Source: Chromera velia
Lineage: Eukaryota > Sar > Chromeraceae
Reading direction: 5' to 3'
Length of the DNA: 20,576 nt
Assembly (NCBI GenBank): GCA_018398765.1
Contig: JAHBMJ010003348.1
Span: 15,001-35,576 of the forward strand
Shown piece by piece: positions 3,753-20,435 of this stretch. A program made the position numbers and the translations under genes. Each line of letters begins with the position of its first letter. The stretch's first letter is position 1. The notes under the pieces were generated by a model that searched no databases, was not told the DNA's origin, and saw nothing but the letters and a program-made list of their open reading frames with translations.

Positions 3753-4663
3753 TCACCCCATCTTGGCCACCTCGTCCTTCCAGTCTCTGTGGTCCTTCGA
3801 AGTCACGTCCTCCAAAGTCGCCACCTTCCGAAGGTAACGTGCAAGCGCGACCAACTCGATGTCCGTCTGCCTCTTGGCCATCCTGCGTGCACACTCACGT
3901 CGATCCACGGTAATTCTGGTTGAGAGGAGAAAAATGAGCAGGCAGGCGGACAGGTTGACTGACTTTTTGGGGGAAGCGGGGAAGAAACAGAAAAAGAGAA
4001 TAGCTCCATTTCCTTCCTTTACTTTAAACCCAGCATGCCCTCTCTACTCCCTCCTTCCTTCCTTCTGCTCTGGACAACCGCAAAGAAAGTTAAATAATGA
4101 CCGGTGGATGCATGGAAGAGAAGACAGAGGACAGAAAACCAGGCAGGCAGGCAGGCAGGCAGGTCCCCCTCCCTCCCTTCCTCCCTACCTGTATGAGGAG
4201 ACCTTGACCCCGTTCTTCGGGTTCATCGCGAAGTTCCTCGACAGATCGTCGATGTGCAAAGTGTTGTGAGGGCCCCAGACGGGAAACTTCGACCAGATGA
4301 TCTCAAGGGCCTTCACCTGAGGGATGGGTGGATGCATCAACGCATCCATCCATCCATCCATCAATTCATCCTCTCGGTCAGTCGGCCAGTTAGAGGGAGA
4401 GAACAGGGAGAAGAAACCAAAAGTTGCAGGAAAGTCGTCAGCGAAAGACACAAAGGAAGGAAGGAATGAGGGAAGGAGGGAAGGGGAAAGAAGGAACCGA
4501 AGACAGCAAATGGAAAGAAACCAAGAGAGGCAGAATGACAGACATACGGAAGAGAAAGTTGCGCGTTGTGAACAAGATAAAATGTGCTAAAAAAGGAGGG
4601 GAGAGCTATGAGAAAAAAAAAAAACAGAGGTGTGAGGTCAGCAGGCTGGGATAGCAGCTCAAG

Positions 4664-4701
<38 letters not shown>

Positions 4702-4731
4702 AAGAAAGAAAACAAAGAAAGAAAGGAAGAA

Positions 4732-4772
<41 letters not shown>

Positions 4773-5433
4773 TCGATCAACATGCAGACGATGGAACAAA
4801 ATGAAAAAAAACCAACCCCCCGCGTACCTCATGCTGCCTCTGAGATCCGTCCTTCTGCCGCGAGGAGACTGTGAACATTGAAGACCTGCATATGCGCACA
4901 AATAGATTCCTCCCCCGTAAGTACCCTCCCTGTCTACGTATCTACACTCAGAGCCCCCCATCATTTGTCCATCCCCCCCCCCACCCATCCATCGGTGTCC
5001 CTTTCCTGCTTTCGTCTCTTTGCCCACCTCACAGCAACCACTCAAAGAAGGCCGGGCGTACTCTCGCAGAAGGAAGAACCACAATTGGTCGGTCATCCAT
5101 CCATCCATCCCACGCGACCCAGGAAGGACTATCAATCCGTAGACGACGACAAGAAAAAGAAGCGAGCCACGAATTCAATCAAGCAGACCCACCCATGCAC
5201 CGACCCAGCGACCAACAAAACGACCCACCGATCCATCACGAAGGAGAGTCTGTAGTTGGAGTTCGTCAGGAACCCCAGTTCTGTGCACTTCATCTCCACC
5301 CACTTCCAGTGCGTCTGGCTCCACACACACAGGTCAAACCACTCGTAGACCGTTGTCATGAACTCCTCGAGGTAAGGCCGTTTCAGATGCTCCACACTCT
5401 CTGCAAACATAGATCATCGTGTTTCCATTTCAG

Positions 5434-5527
<94 letters not shown>

Positions 5528-6562
5528 ATAACAAAAAAAAGCCCTGGCTGGTACCTCGTACCTGTCTGCGGGCGTGCCGATGAGCATGAACTGGTTTTTC
5601 TTCTTGAACTGGAGGAGCGGTAGGAGATCAGCATCCGTGGGATTTCCCTTCCCTCCTACTGTGACGCCAATCAGCTTCTGCGATTAGCGAAAGAGAAGAA
5701 AGAGTAAAGCAAGAGGGGGGGGTGAAATTTCTGGACCCCCCTCTGTACTAACACTGGAGTCACTGCAGGTTCGAGAAAAAGGTTTTGCACGGCCTGGGAA
5801 TGCACATGTTGCGTCTCCATGGGGAGGGGGATCCTTCCATGACTCATAGATGAACAACGGGAGCTGGCCAAAGCCCAATCCTTCAGTGCACTTGCCAGCT
5901 ACCTTGACAGGAAGCACCAGTTGCAACCCCCCCTCCTCCGGGTTTGCTGCCTGAGAAAAATTGACTCGACAAGCAATTGGTGGAGCAAAACATACCCAAG
6001 ACCACCAACCCCAAAACACTCACAACAAGTCTGAGAGTCAACCTGAAGAAAGAGATCAGAAAGGAAAACAACAACTCCAACAATGGACTGACTGACTGAC
6101 TTGTCGTGCAATTGGAATGTTGACTTCCGCCTCTATTTTCATCTTCAAGTCGTTGAACGTGAATGTCTCAAAGTCAGCCGGACAGAAAGTAAACGTCAGC
6201 GCCCTCTTACCCCACATGGCTGTGAGGACAACCAACTCCTCTTCTTCCTGTCCCTGCTGTTCGACCACCAGAGCAGAAGGAGAAAGAGGAACACCGGAAT
6301 CGCTTCCCGCGGCTGCCGCAGCAGCTGCTGCAGCGTTGTTGGTAGTGCTGGAAGAGGAAGACGCTGAAGCCGCAGCGGCAGCACTTCCCTCGTGCTTCTG
6401 CTCCTGTTGCGAAACAGGAGGAGTGGACTCCTCTTTCGTCTCCTCTGCGTTGGCCATCAAGATGTCCTCCTGTGTGGGTGCTCTCGATCTCCTTCCCTCC
6501 ACTTCCATATCGACAGCTGTGGACTCGCCTGAGATGCCGTTTTCTGAGGGCGAGGACGCCAT
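3753..6562 (-). CDS. UBLCP1-like: UBLCP1-like proteasome phosphatase (Ubl + FCP/HAD), catalytic exon missing
   Basis: Six exons are supported: 6562..6101, 5677..5562, 5400..5229, 4885..4828, 4316..4189 and 3882..3753 (stop TGA 3755-3753). Exon 1 gives a low-complexity N-terminus of about 108 residues (poly-Ser, poly-Ala) and then a ubiquitin-like domain (LTAMWGKRALTF; IARQ joined to KLIGVTVGGKG; NQFMLIGT). Later exons give the FCP-type HAD fold: RPYLEEFM, VWSQTHWKWVEMK (motif II Ser), SFVMDRSSMFTV, VKALEIIWSKFP, then LHIDDLSRNFAMNPKNGVK (Asp-Asp motif IV). The last exon ends in two helices. In animals UBLCP1 is nuclear, binds the 26S proteasome through its Ubl and dephosphorylates it. All junctions agree in phase except 5562 to 5400. 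There the DxDxT nucleophile segment should lie, and the 161 bp between the exons contains only AC/AG repeats and short flanks. The start at 6562 is the first Met of the open frame. Confidence 0.9.
4141..4163. repeat. (AGGC)n microsatellite in intron
   Basis: Tandem AGGC units in the last intron of the minus-strand phosphatase gene. In the sense strand this is (GCCT)n, starting about 25 bases after the GTAGGG donor. Confidence 0.9.
4667..4769. repeat. Two (AG)n tracts with AAAG spacer repeats
   Basis: (AG)n at 4667-4697, AAAG/GAAG units, then (AG)n at 4735-4769, all within the intron between exons 4828 and 4316. The sense strand of the gene reads (CT)n. Confidence 0.95.
5401..5561 (-). other. 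Site of the missing phosphatase exon(s); suspected assembly collapse
   Basis: This interval separates two well matched exons of the UBLCP1-like gene but holds only a donor-side stub, (AG)n at 5465-5524 with an AAAG interruption, (AC)n at 5435-5464 and an acceptor. The upstream exon ends with two spare bases. The downstream exon begins with two bases of a split codon. They cannot be joined in frame, so at least one exon of length 3k+2 is missing. In other UBLCP1 proteins this position holds the linker after the Ubl domain and the DxDxT nucleophile motif, roughly 60-75 residues by my recollection of the human protein. The second spliced codon is probably Glu. Confidence 0.75.
6101..6562 (-). 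other. Exon 1 of the UBLCP1-like gene, with donor inside a GTCA repeat
   Basis: 154 codons in phase 0, ending in CGA CAA before the donor. The intron opens GTCAGTCAGTCAGTC on the sense strand, so the 5' splice site is the first unit of a tandem tetranucleotide. The join IPIARQ to KLIGV agrees with the UBLCP1 Ubl domain (RQKLLGLK in the human protein), which fixes the site. Confidence 0.85.
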
Positions 6563-7664: not shown

Positions 7665-9264
7665 ATGTCTGCTGAAGAAGTTGCCCCGGCTGCCGTCCCC
7701 ATGGAGGAGGAGCCTCCAAAAGTGGAAGAAGAGGAAGCGCAGGAGGAGGCTGCAGAGGCAAAACAAGAGGACCATGGAGGTTGGCCTCCTCAGCTCCAGA
7801 GAGCAAAAGTAAAACCGGCCTCGACCAGTAATCTCGATTGTCATGAATACGAAAGAGCTAGAAGCAAAGCCGCAGTGTACACTCCGCTCTCTGCCTGTCA
7901 TTGCAAGTTGGAAGGAACTCTGTATGCCCTCCTTTTCCTTTCACCCACTCGGAAATCCTGTCTGACCCTTTCGCTTCCTTCTCTCTTTGCTTCCTGGTAT
8001 CGCTCTGACGGTGTTGCCATCCGCACCTTTTCCATGATCCCGTTCGACTTTTCTTGCTTTGTATCTGCTTAGGGGCCTTCTTGCCTTCGTGTAAGACTCG
8101 TGCAGTGGTTTTGGCATCAGTGTGTCGTTCCTTCCGCTGAAACATGCATGACAAACCTCGATCGTTTCCCTGAATTTCCCTGTGGAGTGTTTCCGGAAGT
8201 GCGAGTGAGTGTACAACTGTCCGTCCCAACCCGTACGAACGCGATCCATCCGACTGTGCTCCCGTGATTGTACATTCCTACCAGCTGTATGTCTGATTAG
8301 TTTGCGGTGTACATGAATGTGTTTGCCGCCGTGTGCTGCTCGCAGAGGACGCGGTGGACTCCAAGAAGAGGAAGAGAGGAGGGGCTGCTGCTGCTGCTGC
8401 TGCTGTTGCTGCTGCAGGAGCCGCAGGGGTCAGTGAGTGGGTGTGCGTGGGGTCGCTGGCTGGAGAAAGAACAAATTGCGGGAGATAGAAAAGGAATCCA
8501 AAACCACACTTTGCCCCTTTGAATCAAAAGACAACGATCAGGGTGCTTCTTTCTCTCGTTCTCTATCTCTTTCCATCTGGACGTCATATGCTTGCTTGAT
8601 GGGAATCCGACAGGGGCACATGAAAGAAAACCCTGAGGCTGTCACGTTCGAATCAAGCAAGTGTATACATCTGGTTTGTCTTTCTGCTCCGACTCTCTGC
8701 CGCCTGATGGTCCCAAGCTTCTTTGGGCCCTCTTGACTTTGATTGCAGGAAGTTCGCCGATCTGGTCGTGAGAGGAAAGCGGTCCGTCCGTCCGTCTGTT
8801 GGTGGTAGCATGGGGTGCGGACGAAAAAAGAAATGAGGGGGGCCCAGAAGGCATGCAGAGGAGTGAAGGGCAGTGCATGCTCAGCGAAGTGCTATTGTGA
8901 TCATTTTGCGAGACCTTATTGAATGTCACTAGACAGCGTCGCACTGCGAGTCTGCTTCTTGTGCTTTTTGTTGATTTTACGAAACCCTGCAGGGCTCTCG
9001 TCTCTCTGTCTGTGTGTGTCTTCACAGCATGTGTACCCATGCAGTTTGGCTGGTTCAGCGGTGCAACTTCCCGTGTCCTCGGTTGCCTTGCCCTTGTTCC
9101 TTTCCATCCATATTTCATCTCTGTGCCTCTTCATTTCACCTCCCTCTGCCCTGCATGCATGCATGATCCATGCATGCATGCAGGTGACTTTCTACAAAAC
9201 CGAAATTGCGGCGCCGAAAGAGAAGAAGAAAGTGGAGGTCGGTCAGATGGCGAACTCTTCTTTC

Positions 9265-9297
<33 letters not shown>

Positions 9298-9813
9298 TTC
9301 GTTCCTCCTCGCAATCGATCGCTCTCACGTGAGAGATTTTCGTCTTCTCTCGTCTTGCTCCCTTGATTTCCCTTCTTCTATCCTTCCATAACATATGCCT
9401 TGTTCATCTTATTTACTGACTGCATCATGGGAGGGAGGGAGGGAAGGAAGCGTCTTCCAATTTCCCCCCCCAACAGTTTGTTTGAAGGAAGGGGCTGCAT
9501 GAGCGGGGGGGGTTGGTGCTCATGGGATGGTTGGTGCGTCACAACACCAACCAAGCGGATTCCAACGTTGTGTTTTGTTTCTCTCATAAACTATAGATCT
9601 CTCTGACGTTTTGTATTCACATTAATTCTCGCTGCCTGGCTGCCTGGGTGCCCGGCTGCTTCCTTGTAGGGATCCGGAGAGGAACTCGGACAGCTCCCGA
9701 AGGTGAAGGACATGCTCGCAAAGAAGCCGGTGGACTCTGAAGTCCTCAAGAAAATCCACAGAGTGATCCTGGGGGTCGGTCGGTCTGTCTGTCTGTCTGT
9801 TGGTTCTCTCTCT

Positions 9814-9848
<35 letters not shown>

Positions 9849-12800
9849 TTTCTGTCTGTTAATTGGGTTAAGTTGACACATTGGACTTCCTTCCTTCCTT
9901 ACTGGCTCACTCACTGCATGTCCTTCGATCTGTCCATCTGCTGTCGCGTTCTGGCATTGCCACGGAAGGGTGGAGGGTCGGGGGCGGGAACACAAGGTCT
10001 CTCTTCTCTTCTCTATCCGGGAAGCTCAATTTCCTCTGTGATGTGTGGTTTTTCTTTTCGGTCTGCCTGCCTGAATGCTTGCCTGCAGAGCGACGGGACG
10101 AAACACGGGAGGAGACAGGCCATCAAGAAGTGGAAGGGAGCTGATGAGGTCAGTCAGTCAGGCGGGCAGGCAGAGAGAAAGACATGGGGACCAGCAACCA
10201 GAGCCGATCAAACTGGCATGCAGGCTGGTTTTGCAGACAGGCAATCAAAAAGATGCTCCGACAGGCAGGCAGGAAAGTGCCGAAAGGAAGGATACCAACA
10301 CAAAGATCTTCTCGAAGCCGGGCTGAGTGGGTCGTACTCCCTCCCTGCATGTCAGTCAGTATGCATGCCCGCCGGACTTCTCCTCTTCCTCTTCCTTGGC
10401 TCATCCCTCTGTCTTCTCCTCTTCTCTCGCGTCTCGGCGACAGTGAGAAAGAAAAAGTCTGCGCCTGCGTACTTAATGTGTTTCAGGAGGCTGATCGCAA
10501 GCGCATGAAGGAGGCTCTCTCAAGACTGCAGAAGGCTCACATGGTGGAAATGTGCAAGGTCTTGTGCCTGCATCAGAGCGGGGACATGGAAGGTGAGTGG
10601 GTGGATGGGAAGGACGTCCTGCATCAGACAGACAGGCAGAAAGGAAGAATGCAGGTTGATTGATGTGGTATATGCACTCTTTCTTTGTCCCTTTCTCTCT
10701 CTCTCTCTCTCTCTCGTGGTTGACCGATCGAGGAGGCACAGAGAGAGATGGAATGGTGAGGCGAGAAGGAAGGCAGATCGAGAGAGAGAGAGAGGATTGA
10801 ACGACACTGCATGAGATTTGACCCCCTTGCGCCTTTTTCTTTTTTTCTCTCTCTTTTACTGACTGGCCCCATGGCGCCCCTCTCATCTCATCTCGTCTCG
10901 TCTCTCTCCTTTGCTCCAACAAACAGACTTCCCTCTCCCCCGTGTATTTGTTAGTTGTGTCCCTCTTACCTCCCTCCCCTGCATGCACGCAGCCGTTCGG
11001 ACTACCCTCCTCAACTTCCTGGTGTGCCCGAAGGCTGAGAACACGAAGGTTGCTGCGAAGGTCGGTGGGGAGGGGAGGGGATGCAGGTTGGCAGACAAGG
11101 CAGGTTGGAATAAGTGCAGTTTGAGAAGAGAAGAGAGGGGAAGGGTGAGCGCTGCATGGCTGTGGGGGGGGTTGAGGGGGGAAGATGCAGATGAAAAGTG
11201 AGAGGGAGCGTGGGAACGATAATAAATTAATATTATACTAAGAAGAATAAGAAAACACAGGAAGGAAGGAAGCACTTATCTATTTGACTCGACGCCGTAG
11301 AGATCAGATCAGATCAGATCAGTAAGTGAGTGAGTGAGTGAGTCAAGTCTTGCAAGCAAGCAAGCAAGGAAGGAAGGAAACGGAGCCTCCCGTCAGTCAA
11401 GCCTGTCTGTCCGCCCCTGCATGGCTGGTTGACCTCCTCCCCTCCCCTCCCACCGGATCCTTTCTTTCTGTCTGTCTGTCTTTCGTTCTTGGTCGTTGCT
11501 CCCTTGACCGCCCGCCCGCAGAAGAAGGCCCGCCAGCCTGCGACGGGCAAATCCCTGTTTGTGAAGTCGAAAAAGGCGGCTGCGAAGGAGGCCGGGGAGG
11601 ACCTGGCAGAGGCCCAAAAGGCCGCAGAGGAGGCGTGGGAACAGATGGAGGAATCCGACAAAGCGGTAAGTAGGTGGGTAGTAGGTCAGACTAATGAGTG
11701 GGTAGAAGGGAGGGGAGTAAGGCTGAGGCGATTTGCTTTTTCGTCTCTCTTTGTTTCGTTGTATGTGTGCCGTGGTAGTAAAAAAATATCAGAGCATGCG
11801 GCTGTGTGACTGCAGTTGGCTGGAACAGGGCAAACACGTGATGGGTGTGCTTTCTTTCTCTTTTGTCTCCCCCTTCGCTGTTTTCTCCTGCCCCCCCAAT
11901 TTCGTTCAAATGTCTTTGCACGCACCTCCAGCGAAAGTAACGACAGACACGTGATGGAATGAATGCGAACGCCTACCTGCCTGCCTGCCTGCCTGCCTGC
12001 CTGCAGGAATGGGAGGAGAGGGCCGAGAGCAAGGAGAAGAGGAAGAGTACAGGGGAAGGGGGGGATGCAGAGGGTGAGGAGAATGAGGATACAGACGAGG
12101 AAGAGGAGGAGGAGGAGGAAGAGGCGGCTGAAGGAGAGGGTGAACAGAAGGAGGAAGAGGAGAAGGCAGGGGGAGAAGATGAGCAGGTCAGCAAGCAAGG
12201 AGGGTGGGTGGGCTGTTTGTTTGCTTCTTTCTCACGTATATTTATTTGACAGGGGGCGGGCAGGCAGATGCCGGACTGATGGCTTTTTTGGCTTTCCCAG
12301 TCAGAAAATGGTCTCACTTGCTCCTTGGGTCCCGCTCCCTCCCTCCCTCATTTTCTTTCTTTTTTCTTTTTTTTGTGCGTGCATCGCGCTGCTTTTTGTT
12401 GTTTGCTTCTTCTCTCTCTGTCCCCCCCTGTCTCCCTCTGTGCGCATGTCATATCAGCGTGTATAGCTATGGGCCCATGTAGCTGCCCCTCTTCCTCCTT
12501 CTGCGCGCGTGCGTCTGCAGAAGGAGGCCGCGGAGGAAGAGGAAGAAGAGGAAGCCGCAGGGCCCCCCTCTGCAAAGAAGGCAAAGGGCCCTGAGGAGGA
12601 GGATGAGAATGTGGAAGAGGAGAAGGAGGAGGAGAAAGGAGATGATGTGGAGATGGGAGAGGAGAAGCAAGCAGACGCAGATGCAGAGCCAGCTGCCCTG
12701 GAAGCACCAGAAGAGGAAAAGGCAGAGGCAGAGGAGCAGAAGGATGAGGAGATGACTGACGGTGCAGCAGCCCCCAGCAAGGGGCCTGCAGGAGCCCCTG

Positions 12801-12922
12801 GCGGCGACGCCGTTGGACGTGCCCCCTCGGGTGCCTCCACGGTTCAGGCGGGGAGTGGAGAGGAGGTCCCTTCTTCCTCTGCAGCTGCTCCCCCCGCCCC
12901 TGTGGTGGAGGGCTCTGCTTGA
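7665..12922 (+). CDS. DEK-like: DEK-like chromatin-associated protein, 11 exons, about 449 aa
   Basis: Exons: 7665-7779, 8346-8428, 8749-8781, 9184-9237, 9670-9774, 10089-10148, 10487-10592, 10993-11060, 11522-11665, 12007-12186, 12521-12922 (stop TGA 12920-12922). All joins keep frame and the total is 1350 nt. The protein has an acidic Ala-rich N-terminus, a basic block (SKKRKRGG, then poly-Ala), the DEK entry motif EVRRSGRERKAVTFYKTE, a pseudo-SAP segment (VLKKIHRVILG) and a SAP-like helix pair (KAHMVEMCKVLCLHQSGD; TTLLNFLVCPKAE). A Lys/Ala-rich stretch and a very long Glu-rich tail follow. In other eukaryotes DEK binds structured DNA and histones in the nucleus. The usual C-terminal DEK_C domain is not seen. 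Exon 1 could instead end at 7808 (GTAAAA donor) with exon 2 starting at 8348, giving about 458 aa. An in-frame ATG lies further upstream at 7560, but 7665 begins the acidic run. Confidence 0.88.
8380..8417 (+). repeat. GCT-codon repeat coding poly-Ala in the DEK-like exon 2
   Basis: GCT is repeated seven times, then GTT and GCT GCT GCA, in frame as alanine with one valine. It is a trinucleotide tract inside an exon, whereas introns of the gene mostly hold tetranucleotide tracts. Confidence 0.85.
9151..9183 (+). repeat. Perfect 15-bp inverted repeat ending exactly at a 3' splice site
   Basis: The left arm is 9151-9165, the loop ATC 9166-9168 and the right arm 9169-9183, built from TGCA units. 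The right arm ends in the CAG acceptor of DEK-like exon 4 (exon starts 9184), so a folded transcript would put the splice-acceptor AG inside the stem. Confidence 0.9.
9265..9295. repeat. (CTGT)n microsatellite in DEK-like intron 4
   Basis: Seven tandem units about 30 bases into the intron, pyrimidine-leaning on the sense strand. Confidence 0.95.
9775..9847 (+). repeat. Donor-linked (GTCN)n tract followed by (GT)n in DEK-like intron 5
   Basis: The intron opens GTCGGTCGGTCTGTCTGTCT, continues to about 9800, and a dinucleotide GT run follows at 9818-9847. The first GTCG unit is the 5' splice site itself. Confidence 0.9.
10679..10795. repeat. (CT)n and (AG)n runs in DEK-like intron 7
   Basis: A (CT)n run at about 10693-10714 and an (AG)n run at about 10778-10794 are inversely complementary and 60 bp apart, so they could pair in RNA. 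Confidence 0.85.
11301..11380. repeat. (AGATC)4, (AGTG)n and (AAGC)n/(AAGG)n tracts in DEK-like intron 8
   Basis: Three short tandem families lie almost back to back. AGATC units at 11301-11320 are pentanucleotide, unlike the tetranucleotide tracts around them. Confidence 0.9.
11975..12006 (+). repeat. (CCTG)n tract forming the 3' splice site of DEK-like exon 10
   Basis: About seven CCTG units end in CTGCAG at 12001-12006 and the exon begins at 12007. The repeat itself serves as the polypyrimidine region. Confidence 0.9.
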
Positions 12923-16124: not shown

Positions 16125-16623
16125 ACGTACGTATTATATACTTTGGTGAATTCCACTGTGGCAAAGGGATTTCCACACACAAGTGTACAACTGTCAAGAG
16201 CTACAAAGCATGCAAAGAAGACGGATTGGTCAGATGCTTCGATGCTGGCTCAAACCAGCCATTTCTCTTAAGCACTGCGACGACGAGCGTCGAGACGGCC
16301 CTCATAACATGTACACACACTCATAAATTCCAAAAGCAACGAGGGAGTACAGCAGACAAGCTCCTCCATGCTTTTGGACAGCGTGCCATATCCACCTTCC
16401 TTGACCCGCTGATTTCCTGTCAATCGTTCCACGTTGCCGCCTTGGTGAGAAGCAAACGTATATATACTCATTTTTCTTAACAGGTTGGGACGAGCAGAAT
16501 TAAGTAGATCGGTTTCGACTCTCCAAAAGAGAACGACAAGTCTCAGAGGTACTCTCCCTTCATCTTCTCAGCCGGTCCAATAGAGGCGCAAAAAAGACTC
16601 ACAAGTATATAGGGACGGGAAGG

Positions 16624-19600
16624 ATGCAGCAGGACCAGGCTTCTCTTCTCCACACTGCCCATCCGAATTCCGGCATCCCCCCTCCCACTTCACCGAAGAA
16701 TGCACAGTATGTGAACACATTCTCTTCCCCATCTGCCTCCTCTTCGCCTCAACCCCCAGCTCTTCTGCCCGCAGCAACCACACAGGCGCAGCTGCAGCAG
16801 CATTCCCTCAGGCAGATGGTCGCGTTTCAGAAAGACCCTCTGCCAAGCTCCGTCCGAACCAAACTCTCTAGACATATTCAAGCAGCTGCTGCTGCTGCTA
16901 ATGCATCTGGAGGCTCGTCCATGCCCTCCTCACTACCCGCAGCAACAAATTCCAACCCCTCAGGGACGGGCAGGGGGGGGTCTGGAGGACGTGGAGTGGG
17001 TGGGACTTCCGCGCATTCAGAGCGCCTCCTTCGTTTCCTTCCGAACAACGCCGACGTTCTGCAGAAGGCCTCCGCCCATCTGCAGCAGCAGCAGCAGGCA
17101 GGGACAGGCACAGCACCTCATGGGAAGAGCCCGCCCCTCTACTGTCTTGCGTCAATGCTCAAAAACAGGGGGGAGCACTCTCCTAATGAACAGCACCACC
17201 AAGGGGAGTTGTCGCCCTCTGACGGCATCATCCACTCGGTGAATGACCACACGGGCCTGTCCCCTCCACTGAATGCAAATACCCTCAACGCACTCTCACC
17301 CCCCTCTGCAGTGCATCACTGGTCCCAGACCCCCAACAGCTCCGCACATGTCAACGCGAACGCCAGCATGACACCCAATCCGATCCTCCCGATTCCGACC
17401 CTTAGCAGCAAAGACCTCCACTCATCTGCCCCCCTTCCGCCCAGTCAAAAAGAAGAAAAGAAAACAATCGAGACTCACACCGACAATCACGAGAGCAGAG
17501 CTAAGTCAGGCAGCAGGACTGAAGCACGGGGGGGGAAGGAGAGACGCCACCGCCCCCCCCCCNCCTCCCCTGTTCCCCCCCAACTTTGAGTACAGGCATC
17601 TGGATGCACAGCCACCAACCGAACGTTGCCCCCCGATCCATGCACCCACCCGACCCCTCAAGTCCTCTAGGTGCCTTCCCTCCCTCACCTGCGGTTTCAT
17701 TGCTCTCAAATGGTACCCGTCAAGCTGCCGGGGGGCCGAATTCCAATTCCACAGGAGGAGGCGTGACGCAACAAAGCAGGAGAGGACTGCGAGTGTCTGA
17801 GGAGCCCTCTTCATCTTCACACAACCGGCATGAGGGGGATAGAGGGGAGGGAAGGGGGGGTTATCCTCACACAACAAACTTTACTGCTTTCTCTGCACTA
17901 GCTTTGAGAGAGAGTCAGCAAGCCCAACGGCGGGCTTCCTATGGCGATTCTGCTGCTGCCATCAGCAGTACGAAGGATGAGTCTACTTCGAGAGGAAGGG
18001 AAAAAGAGAAGGGAAAGGGTGGGGAGTCCAACACAATGATGACTTCTGCTGCTGCTGGGGCCTCTATTGGAACGTCATTATCGAGACGCACAGCTTCGCT
18101 CTACACTTCTTCAAAAGCGCTTGTTCATAGGGAGAGGGAGACGGAAAGCGAATTAGTTGAGGAGACGGCAGCCACAAATGATGAGGGGGAAGGGGAAGGA
18201 GCACGCGAGGGGGAAAGAGAAAGAAGAGAAAAGCCTCATGTGACAGTAGGTGAAGAGAGACACATGCCGCCCCCCGCATCTCCCGGAGAACGAGGATCCC
18301 TCACAGCTGGTGGTCCCTCTTCGGTTTCCATCGGCTCTTCCTCTGTTCGGGGAGGGTCTTGGGGGGGAGGTGTGGAAGGGCGGGCAGAAAGAGAAAGAGA
18401 AAGGGGGGGCAGTCAGACGATCAAGGATAGGGAGAAGGAGAGGGAGAGGGAGTGTGACGAAGGTGCTGTGTTAGTCAAAAAGAGACCCCCACTGCTCCCG
18501 GGTGAGAGAAAACCAAGAGCCTCAGATCTCGTTCACCCTTCCCTTTCGTTCTTTCTTCAGAGTGCCTTCACGGGAAGACCGCCGACTCTTTTCTTTGACT
18601 ACCCCCATTTCACGGGAGTTGAGAAAGTTCCAGGGAGCAGACTCCTGGCAGTTGAGAGAAAGCAGTCGTGTCCTCTGTACTACCACCACAACGCGAAGGC
18701 ACACCCGTACAATTGTGTCCTGAATGCACTCAAGCGACTCGGTGGGTAAGTGCAGGCTGTCTTTTCTTAATTTGTTCAGTAATGCTTTCAGTTAGAGGGC
18801 TAGGCTTTGTGCTTTAAAGTGTTCTTCCACCTTTTTTTTCGACCCTCCGTAGTTCTTTTTTTTCCCGTTTCTTCTTTCCCTTCTTCCTTCTCTCCATGCT
18901 GCTCCATTTGTCTGCTGCTGTGAAGTCCTTTTGCGTGCTTCTGTCTGTTCAAATCTGAATGCCGTTTTTACCACTTTGCTGACTCTAGGCGAATTTGACA
19001 TTCACAACCATGATTTCTTGATTGTGCTATCTGTTCTGTTTCTTTCATTCGCCATCCTTTCTACTGGTCGGTTCTCTTTTTTTTTCTGTCCATATCATCT
19101 TCCCCTTCAGGATTTAGAAGGGCAAAGTACTCAACCAGAAAGTGGGTGCTGGCATGGGGAGGAGTCCCGAAGCCGGAGGCATTGAGGAAGTGCAACCCGA
19201 TGCAAAGACTCAACCACTTCCCACAGACATGGGCTCTGGGTGAGTAGCTCGCCACTGGGTGCATAGGGGGGGCAGTGAATCTTCATTGNNNGGGAACTGT
19301 CAGGAATCTTAACAACAGAAAGCTTCAGAGAGAGGGTTTCCTCATCGGACTTTCGCTTGCTTTCAAAAGGTCCACGTCTTCTACTTACATATGCGCACAG
19401 CAAGGAAGGAGGGACGAACGTGGGGGACAATTAATTAAAAAAGAAAGAGGGCATTCCTCGACAGCTGACAAAGAAGAGTCCCCGATTACATGCCTGATTC
19501 AAATCAATGTTTGTCGAAAAAAAGTGAAACTGTCTGTCAGGTTTTCTTCCAAAGAAACCATCTGCCTGCGCTTTCGCATGCCTGCAGGAAGAAAGGATTT

Positions 19601-20435
19601 GCTCTGGCGCAACCTAAGGAGGATGAAGAGACGGCATGGCGCTTCTTTCGACTTCTCTCCCCCCTCTTGGCTTCTGCCTGAAGACGCAAGGCTCCTCCAG
19701 AGGGAACGGGAAACACGTCAGTCACCTATGCAGTCAGACAGACAACCAGTCAGTCTCTCAGTCAGAGAGGCAAGCAGACACACAGGGAGGCAGGGCAGGA
19801 GTCTCTCAGTCAGACAGGAGGCACGCAGGCAGGAAGGTAAGGGATCGACTGGATTTGCCTCCATCGAGAAATTCATTAAGAGCTTTCGTCTTTCTTCGCC
19901 AGGCTGGCTCTTGCTGTTCCCTTCCACTGTTTGCCTTACTTCTGTTGTTCTTTTTACCTCAAACAATTTCTGGTCAAAAATGTTTGACGATGGGAGGGAA
20001 GGGTGCAGAGTGAATGACTTGTCTTTTGGCGGACACACAGAGTATCCTTCCCTTGCGTGTAGTCCTTGTCGGATAGTTTCTCCTTATCAAAGAATCCCTT
20101 TTGACTCTTTTTTTTCATTTTGTCGTCAAGTTGGATCACAGAAAGCAACAGACAAGAGAGGCATTTCTTACGTTTCCGAGCTGTATTCCGCATGCATGGG
20201 CATGTCCTTGCTCGCCTTGCATCAATACAAGACCAAGTTACAGAACGGCTGACGGAATGAAAAAATGCCTGATTGAGCAAGAGAGTGAGCGAGTCAATGG
20301 CTGACTGAGTGACTGGGTGTGCGTGAGGAACTGAGTGAGTGGGTGAAAGAGTGGACGGTCGGACGAGTGCATGGATGGTTGCAGACCCGAGGGGTCTATG
20401 GATCATCAAACCCTGTGCTTCCTCCTGTGGGCGCG
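16624..20435 (+). CDS. TTLL4-like: TTLL4-like tubulin polyglutamylase, 5' four exons (continues past window)
   Basis: Exons 16624-18741, 19111-19239, 19588-19716 and 20385-20435 join in frame; donors are GTGGGT, GTGAGT, GTCAGT and GTACGT. The N-terminal part, some 650 residues, is Ser/Pro/Gln-rich and then Glu/Arg-rich and has no recognised domain. The TTL domain starts near 18579: PPTLFFDYPHF, VEKVPGSRL, NCVLNALKRLGFRRAKYS, WVLAWGGVPKPEAL, QRLNHFPQTWALGRKDLLW, RNLRRMKRRHG, FDFSPPSWLLPEDARLL, then WIIKPCASSCGRG, the start of the ATP-grasp nucleotide site. TTLL4 enzymes add glutamate side chains to tubulin tails. Catalytic exons beyond the ATP-binding Lys lie outside the window. One N at 17563 in a C-run, plus a frame change between 17523 and 17589, breaks exon 1; this looks like a sequencing fault. 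The start at 16624 is the first Met of the open frame. Confidence 0.9.
17551..17589 (+). other. Frame break at an ambiguous base in TTLL4-like exon 1
   Basis: A run of C with an N at 17563 marks where the open frame changes from that of 16624 to that of 18738. The upstream frame stays open to 17589, while the downstream frame has a stop at 17520-17522. The change therefore falls within about 65 bases containing G- and C-homopolymers. A miscounted homopolymer is the simplest explanation. Confidence 0.85.
19289..19291. other. Three-base N gap inside TTLL4-like intron 2
   Basis: NNN interrupts the intron between exons ending 19239 and starting 19588. No coding effect. Confidence 0.95.
19717..19840 (+). 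repeat. Imperfect CAGT/CAGA/CAGG repeat at the start of TTLL4-like intron 3
   Basis: The intron opens GTCAGTCACC and continues in CAGACAGAC, CAGTCAGTCTCTCAGTCAG and GGCAGG units to about 19840, so the donor again merges into tetranucleotide sequence. The rest of the intron to 20384 shows no exon. Confidence 0.75.

Follow-up and report, generated by a model that had tools for sequence, protein, structure and literature searches.

A UBLCP1-type gene on the minus strand of the Chromera velia DNA analyzed here (20,576 nucleotides, referred to as the window) is assembled without the segment in which its catalytic motif I, the DxDxT nucleophile, is expected. We regard it as highly probable that this is a normal UBLCP1 gene from which one or a few exons were lost in the short-read assembly, and we infer both the join and the software step behind it. 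The gene itself is ordinary, and the absent motif I most likely represents missing sequence, with its exon fallen into an assembly gap, and not a real feature of the genome. Six exons were recognized between 6562 and 3753, of which exons 1 and 2 encode an N-terminal extension and the Ubl domain, and exons 3 to 6 encode the part of the HAD-IIID1 domain that follows motif I, through to the C-terminus. The features of the gene and of the interval between exons 2 and 3 are as follows:

6101-6562, minus strand: exon 1, N-terminal extension followed by the beginning of the Ubl domain, ending in VNIPIARQ; donor CAA/GTCAGT
5562-5677, minus strand: exon 2, remaining Ubl domain, KLIGVTVGG to QFMLIGTPAD plus AG; donor CAG/GTACGA, with two spare bases at the end
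5401-5561, minus strand: interval of 161 bases where the motif I (DxDxT) exon is expected; presumed assembly join
5435-5525, no strand assigned: AC/AG array, AC over 31 bases and AG over 61 bases, base 5465 being common to both
5435-5465, no strand assigned: AC part of the array, exactly 31 bases
5465-5525, no strand assigned: AG part of the array, an exact 31-base run, a one-base interruption at 5496, then 29 bases
5229-5400, minus strand: exon 3, SVEHLKRPYLEEF through VWSQTHWKW (motif II Ser) to SFVMD
4828-4885, minus strand: exon 4, SSMFTVSSRQKDGSQRQHE; both sides in phase
4189-4316, minus strand: exon 5, VKALEIIW (motif III Lys) to IDDLSRNF (motif IV)
3753-3915, minus strand: exon 6, C-terminal part, ending in DEVAKMG and a stop

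The introns as assembled measure 161-511 bases, and the four junctions other than that of exons 2 and 3 follow the GT-AG rule and are in phase. Neither translated piece of the gene contains an early stop, and the TAG seen in one match of the genome search lies just beyond the donor of exon 5. A second AG-rich array (4667-4769), which starts with an exact 31-base run, lies in the intron that separates exons 4 and 5; these two exons are in phase. Elsewhere in the window, an apparent multi-exon gene on the plus strand (~7665-12922) encodes a highly charged, Glu/Lys-rich protein, a piece of which (~9671-11665) has no Pfam match over the cut-off. A single N in a C tract at 17563, located at the overlap of two long open frames on the plus strand in different phases (16504-17589 and 17523-18749), suggests a homopolymer-error frameshift, and a tubulin-tyrosine-ligase-like segment (PF03133) follows this N near 19115-19680.

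When the Ubl part was searched against PDB (maximum E 1), six matches were obtained, of which the top three are human UBLCP1 Ubl structures (2LGD, 2M17, and 2KX3) and the fourth is 1V5T, labelled 8430435I17Rik protein, which we take to be mouse Ublcp1; the top four have E values of 0.003-0.004. The Pfam ubiquitin profile gives 15.4 bits on this part, under its cut-off of 25.4. These scores are weak when judged by sequence alone, but the N-terminal part is a Ubl domain like that of UBLCP1. The C-terminal piece matches fly UBLCP1 (3SHQ) with an E value of 4.4e-30, and when joined reaches 60.4 bits with PF03031 (cut-off 21.8); the UBLCP1-type gene was not among the matches of an exon-by-exon PF03031 search of the assembly. 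TIGR02245 (HAD-IIID1) scores 181.7 bits over positions 42-193 of its 195 relative to a cut-off of 192.25, and its positions 1-41 are absent. In the alignment to 3SHQ, the Ser, the Lys (EVKALEIIW), and the DD of motifs II, III, and IV, respectively, are all kept. The Ubl domain, VWSQTHWKW, and IDDLSRNF had already been recognized in an earlier sequence-only reading of the window, which is borne out, and the motif III Lys and the C-terminal part can be added to them.

The assembled gene has no motif I. A missing DxDxT exon had been proposed in the earlier reading, and the motif is indeed absent, but the loss is larger than the motif: it begins where the Ubl domain ends and reaches approximately residue 162 of 3SHQ, includes the part aligned with REGKKLLVLDIDYT, and amounts to roughly 80 residues, provided that the linker is of animal length here. 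Exon 2 ends at 5562 and exon 3 restarts at 5400. The 161 bases between them are free of N and contain no D.D.[TV] in any frame, which confirms the reported lack of a nucleophile motif on the minus strand between the two exons. In six frames of the whole window, D.D.[TV] occurs three times, at 4200 and 14274 (plus strand) and at 20070 (minus strand); none of the three is plausible, and none lies on the minus strand within the UBLCP1-type gene. The interval had been described as an AC/AG repeat of 161 bp; its length is correct, but the array makes up only 91 bases, and the 36 bases on its donor side and the 34 bases on its acceptor side are ordinary sequence with a plausible donor and acceptor, respectively.

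Splicing at the default pair of sites (5562/5400) brings the two bases left over from exon 2 up against two leading bases of exon 3, which disrupts the frame. The earlier reading ruled out any in-frame splice between these exons, which holds for this pair only: among the 35 GT-AG pairs formed by five donors and seven acceptors, nine keep the frame, and eight of these nine are free of stops. The open in-frame joins include 5562 to 5396, which uses tandem AG acceptors (CAG/AG/AG/TG), and 5555 to 5398, and none of the eight brings motif I into the product. Because such pairs exist, the phase break alone proves nothing. The missing length of 3k+2 likewise follows from the default splice sites, as had been proposed for a single dropped exon, but may be that of several exons summed. 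The decisive point is that beta-1 and the nucleophile are absent, since the retained motifs are hard to understand in their absence. The beta-1 strand carries the nucleophile, which lies at the centre of the HAD fold. For Toxoplasma UBLCP1, the DLDYT motif was identified as the active site by means of a D470A mutant (PMC11951701).

The assembly that we searched comprises 4040 contigs with 177.8 Mb in total, compared with 193.66 Mb in 5953 scaffolds for the published Chromera velia assembly (PMC4501334); about 16 Mb of the latter may lie outside the searched part, and the absences given here apply to the searched part only. A search for plastid PsaA/PsaB gave no match, and alveolin-type matches number 11, a weak indicator of the species, as this family also gives matches in Caulobacter among the controls. 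When TIGR02245 and a UBLCP1 catalytic domain were used as queries (E up to 10), the three candidates scored for each were all exons of the present locus in this assembly, in which the exon 2 flank occurs once, with no second site, and no second UBLCP1-like locus was found. Three motif I patterns, all of which demand a hydrophobic second residue and two of which also demand DYT, gave 4, 24, and 12 matches, compared with 1, 16, and 28 for the reversed-pattern controls; the third shows no excess over its control (12 vs. 28). This third pattern was run because a DxD directly preceded by an intron, as is apparent in the paralogues on contigs C1108 and C1929, would escape the first two. The 4 and 24 matches were all read in context, as were 10 of the 12, the other two (on C552 and C2956) being places from the first pattern; from their context, none was judged to be a UBLCP1 motif I exon. 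PF03031 matches fall on six contigs, and all five that were inspected (C3545 was left out) have a DxDxT within ~2 kb of their other exons, as read without building gene models. C1108 (locus L005) and C1929 (locus L004) each carry an FCP/SCP-type phosphatase gene, the two being similar; in both, DLDETL is apparently preceded directly by an intron, so that patterns with upstream residues miss them. In the literature searched, no paper mentions both UBLCP1 and Chromera.

The lengths of AG arrays in this genome have a regularity of the assembler type, seen in an excess of 31-base AG runs and in a 32-base cycle. Exact AG runs with A at both ends, counted genome-wide on both strands, occur 1137 times with a length of 27 bases, 1820 times with 31 bases, and 969 times with 33 bases, the count at 31 bases being 1.78 times that expected from log-linear interpolation (1022). 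Of the period-2 and period-4 runs of 28 or more bases in a local, non-random sample (42 stretches with 213,921 bases, some of them N), those of 31 bases are again the most frequent (12 and 9, respectively), with 7 of these 21 runs supplied by locus L019 and 6 by the window. Since 36 of the 182 period-2 or period-4 runs of at least 20 bases in this sample are longer than 31, this length is a peak and no ceiling. Locus L019 (contig C331) contains seven consecutive 31-base AG runs with a single A between them (2562-2784), forming a 32-base cycle, (AG)15AA, that resembles a path walked repeatedly in a k-mer graph and looks like an assembler artefact. The AC/AG array of the interval repeats the 31-base run and one-base interruption of L019 before continuing for 29 bases, and we infer that the sequence of such arrays is in part a product of computation. 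Being a property of the whole genome, the excess is no proof of an error at the UBLCP1 locus. AG arrays were found within 350 bases of a contig start at 7 of 300 places, vs. 2.4 expected (p 0.011), a weak indication, as the 300 are 100 listed per run length out of 3926 counted, come from the lowest-numbered contigs, and were hand-counted and clustered. SGA works with 31-mers by default. The Chromera velia assembly pipeline consisted of SGA correction, velvet at k=71, and gap closing by GapFiller and IMAGE, left out scaffolds < 1 kb, and applied REAPR to break misassemblies; its authors named low-complexity regions as a difficulty (PMC4501334).

Between the two outcomes offered by the sequence-only reading, a collapse between AG runs or a broken or pseudo-phosphatase copy, a collapse is favored on four grounds: the four remaining junctions preserve phase, the gene retains its other catalytic motifs, the searched assembly yielded no second copy, and the AG array shares a genome-wide length signature. 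The motif I segment, consisting of the end of the linker between the Ubl and phosphatase domains and beta-1 with DxDxT, would have resided on one or more exons that were dropped by the short-read assembly, and the introns on either side probably bore AG arrays. The assembler or gap-filler may have entered the AG array after exon 2 and exited via the AG/AC array before exon 3, which would have linked the 5' portion of one intron directly to the 3' portion of another farther along the gene, and the small island between the two AG-bearing introns, probably < 1 kb, would have been lost. The use of REAPR in the published pipeline counts against an undetected misjoin, as the N-free interval counts against an assembly fault and the open in-frame direct joins, together with the failure to find the presumed exon in the searched assembly, count against exon loss in the assembly.

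It could be argued instead that the exon was deleted from the genome, perhaps via recombination between AG arrays, which would leave either a pseudogene of recent origin or a Ubl protein whose HAD domain is broken. Such arrays could recombine, no such exon was found in the searched assembly, and the direct joins 5562 to 5396 and 5555 to 5398 are open in frame; however, a HAD domain deprived of beta-1 is hardly expected to fold, and yet the gene has preserved motifs II-IV and its other splice sites, and no early stop has arisen. Nor was another UBLCP1-like locus found in the searched assembly to take over the function, and in Toxoplasma the deletion mutant is reported to show compromised proliferation (PMC11951701). 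We consider a real loss improbable and a genuine pseudo-phosphatase unlikely. There is scarcely any chance, in our view, that the alga expresses a UBLCP1 without the nucleophile strand, with exon 2 spliced to exon 3 via an alternative site, and that this protein acts at the proteasome as a Ubl adaptor without catalytic activity.

The exon might also be present in the window or elsewhere in the genome in an unrecognizable form, either with a divergent DxDxT or with an intron inside the motif, given that our patterns require a hydrophobic second residue (and DYT in two of the three) and that an intron apparently lies just before DxD in the two paralogues L005 and L004. This is very improbable, as D.D.[TV] occurs in no frame of the interval and nowhere plausible in the window, and the 161 bases minus the 91-base array cannot fit ~80 residues. 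Human UBLCP1 keeps D[LI]DYT. The same motif is kept in fly and, as reported, in Toxoplasma (PMC11951701). We think it extremely unlikely that the exon was misplaced and not lost, residing on a contig of the published assembly outside the searched part. The difference between 177.8 Mb in 4040 contigs and 193.66 Mb in 5953 scaffolds leaves room for such a contig, but scaffolds < 1 kb were excluded and an island between introns of 161-511 bases would probably be smaller; its presence there would still be an assembly fault.

AG arrays in the Chromera velia assembly may conceal exon losses without any N, and any conclusion that a catalytic motif is absent, that a gene has been lost, or that an enzyme is a pseudo-enzyme needs to be checked against reads or transcripts if it concerns sequence beside such arrays. 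A comparison of older vertebrate assemblies with better ones showed missing exons to be one of the commonest kinds of false gene loss (PMC9516821), exons of Chlamydomonas are reported to be hidden in N-islands (PMC4938644), and gap-closing methods have been noted to close gaps inaccurately (PMC8848313).

Compared to UBLCP1 proteins (TIGR02245 HAD-IIID1; 3SHQ), the Chromera gene has the same order, a Ubl domain ahead of an FCP/SCP-type HAD domain that includes motifs II-IV and the C-terminal part, whereas its assembled locus is without TIGR02245 positions 1-41, the DxDxT nucleophile included. As in the false gene losses described for short-read assemblies (PMC9516821; PMC4938644), a conserved gene is without an exon near repeats. 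Unlike those cases, including the N-islands of Chlamydomonas, the break here is closed by a plausible microsatellite with no N, and it resembles a real intron.
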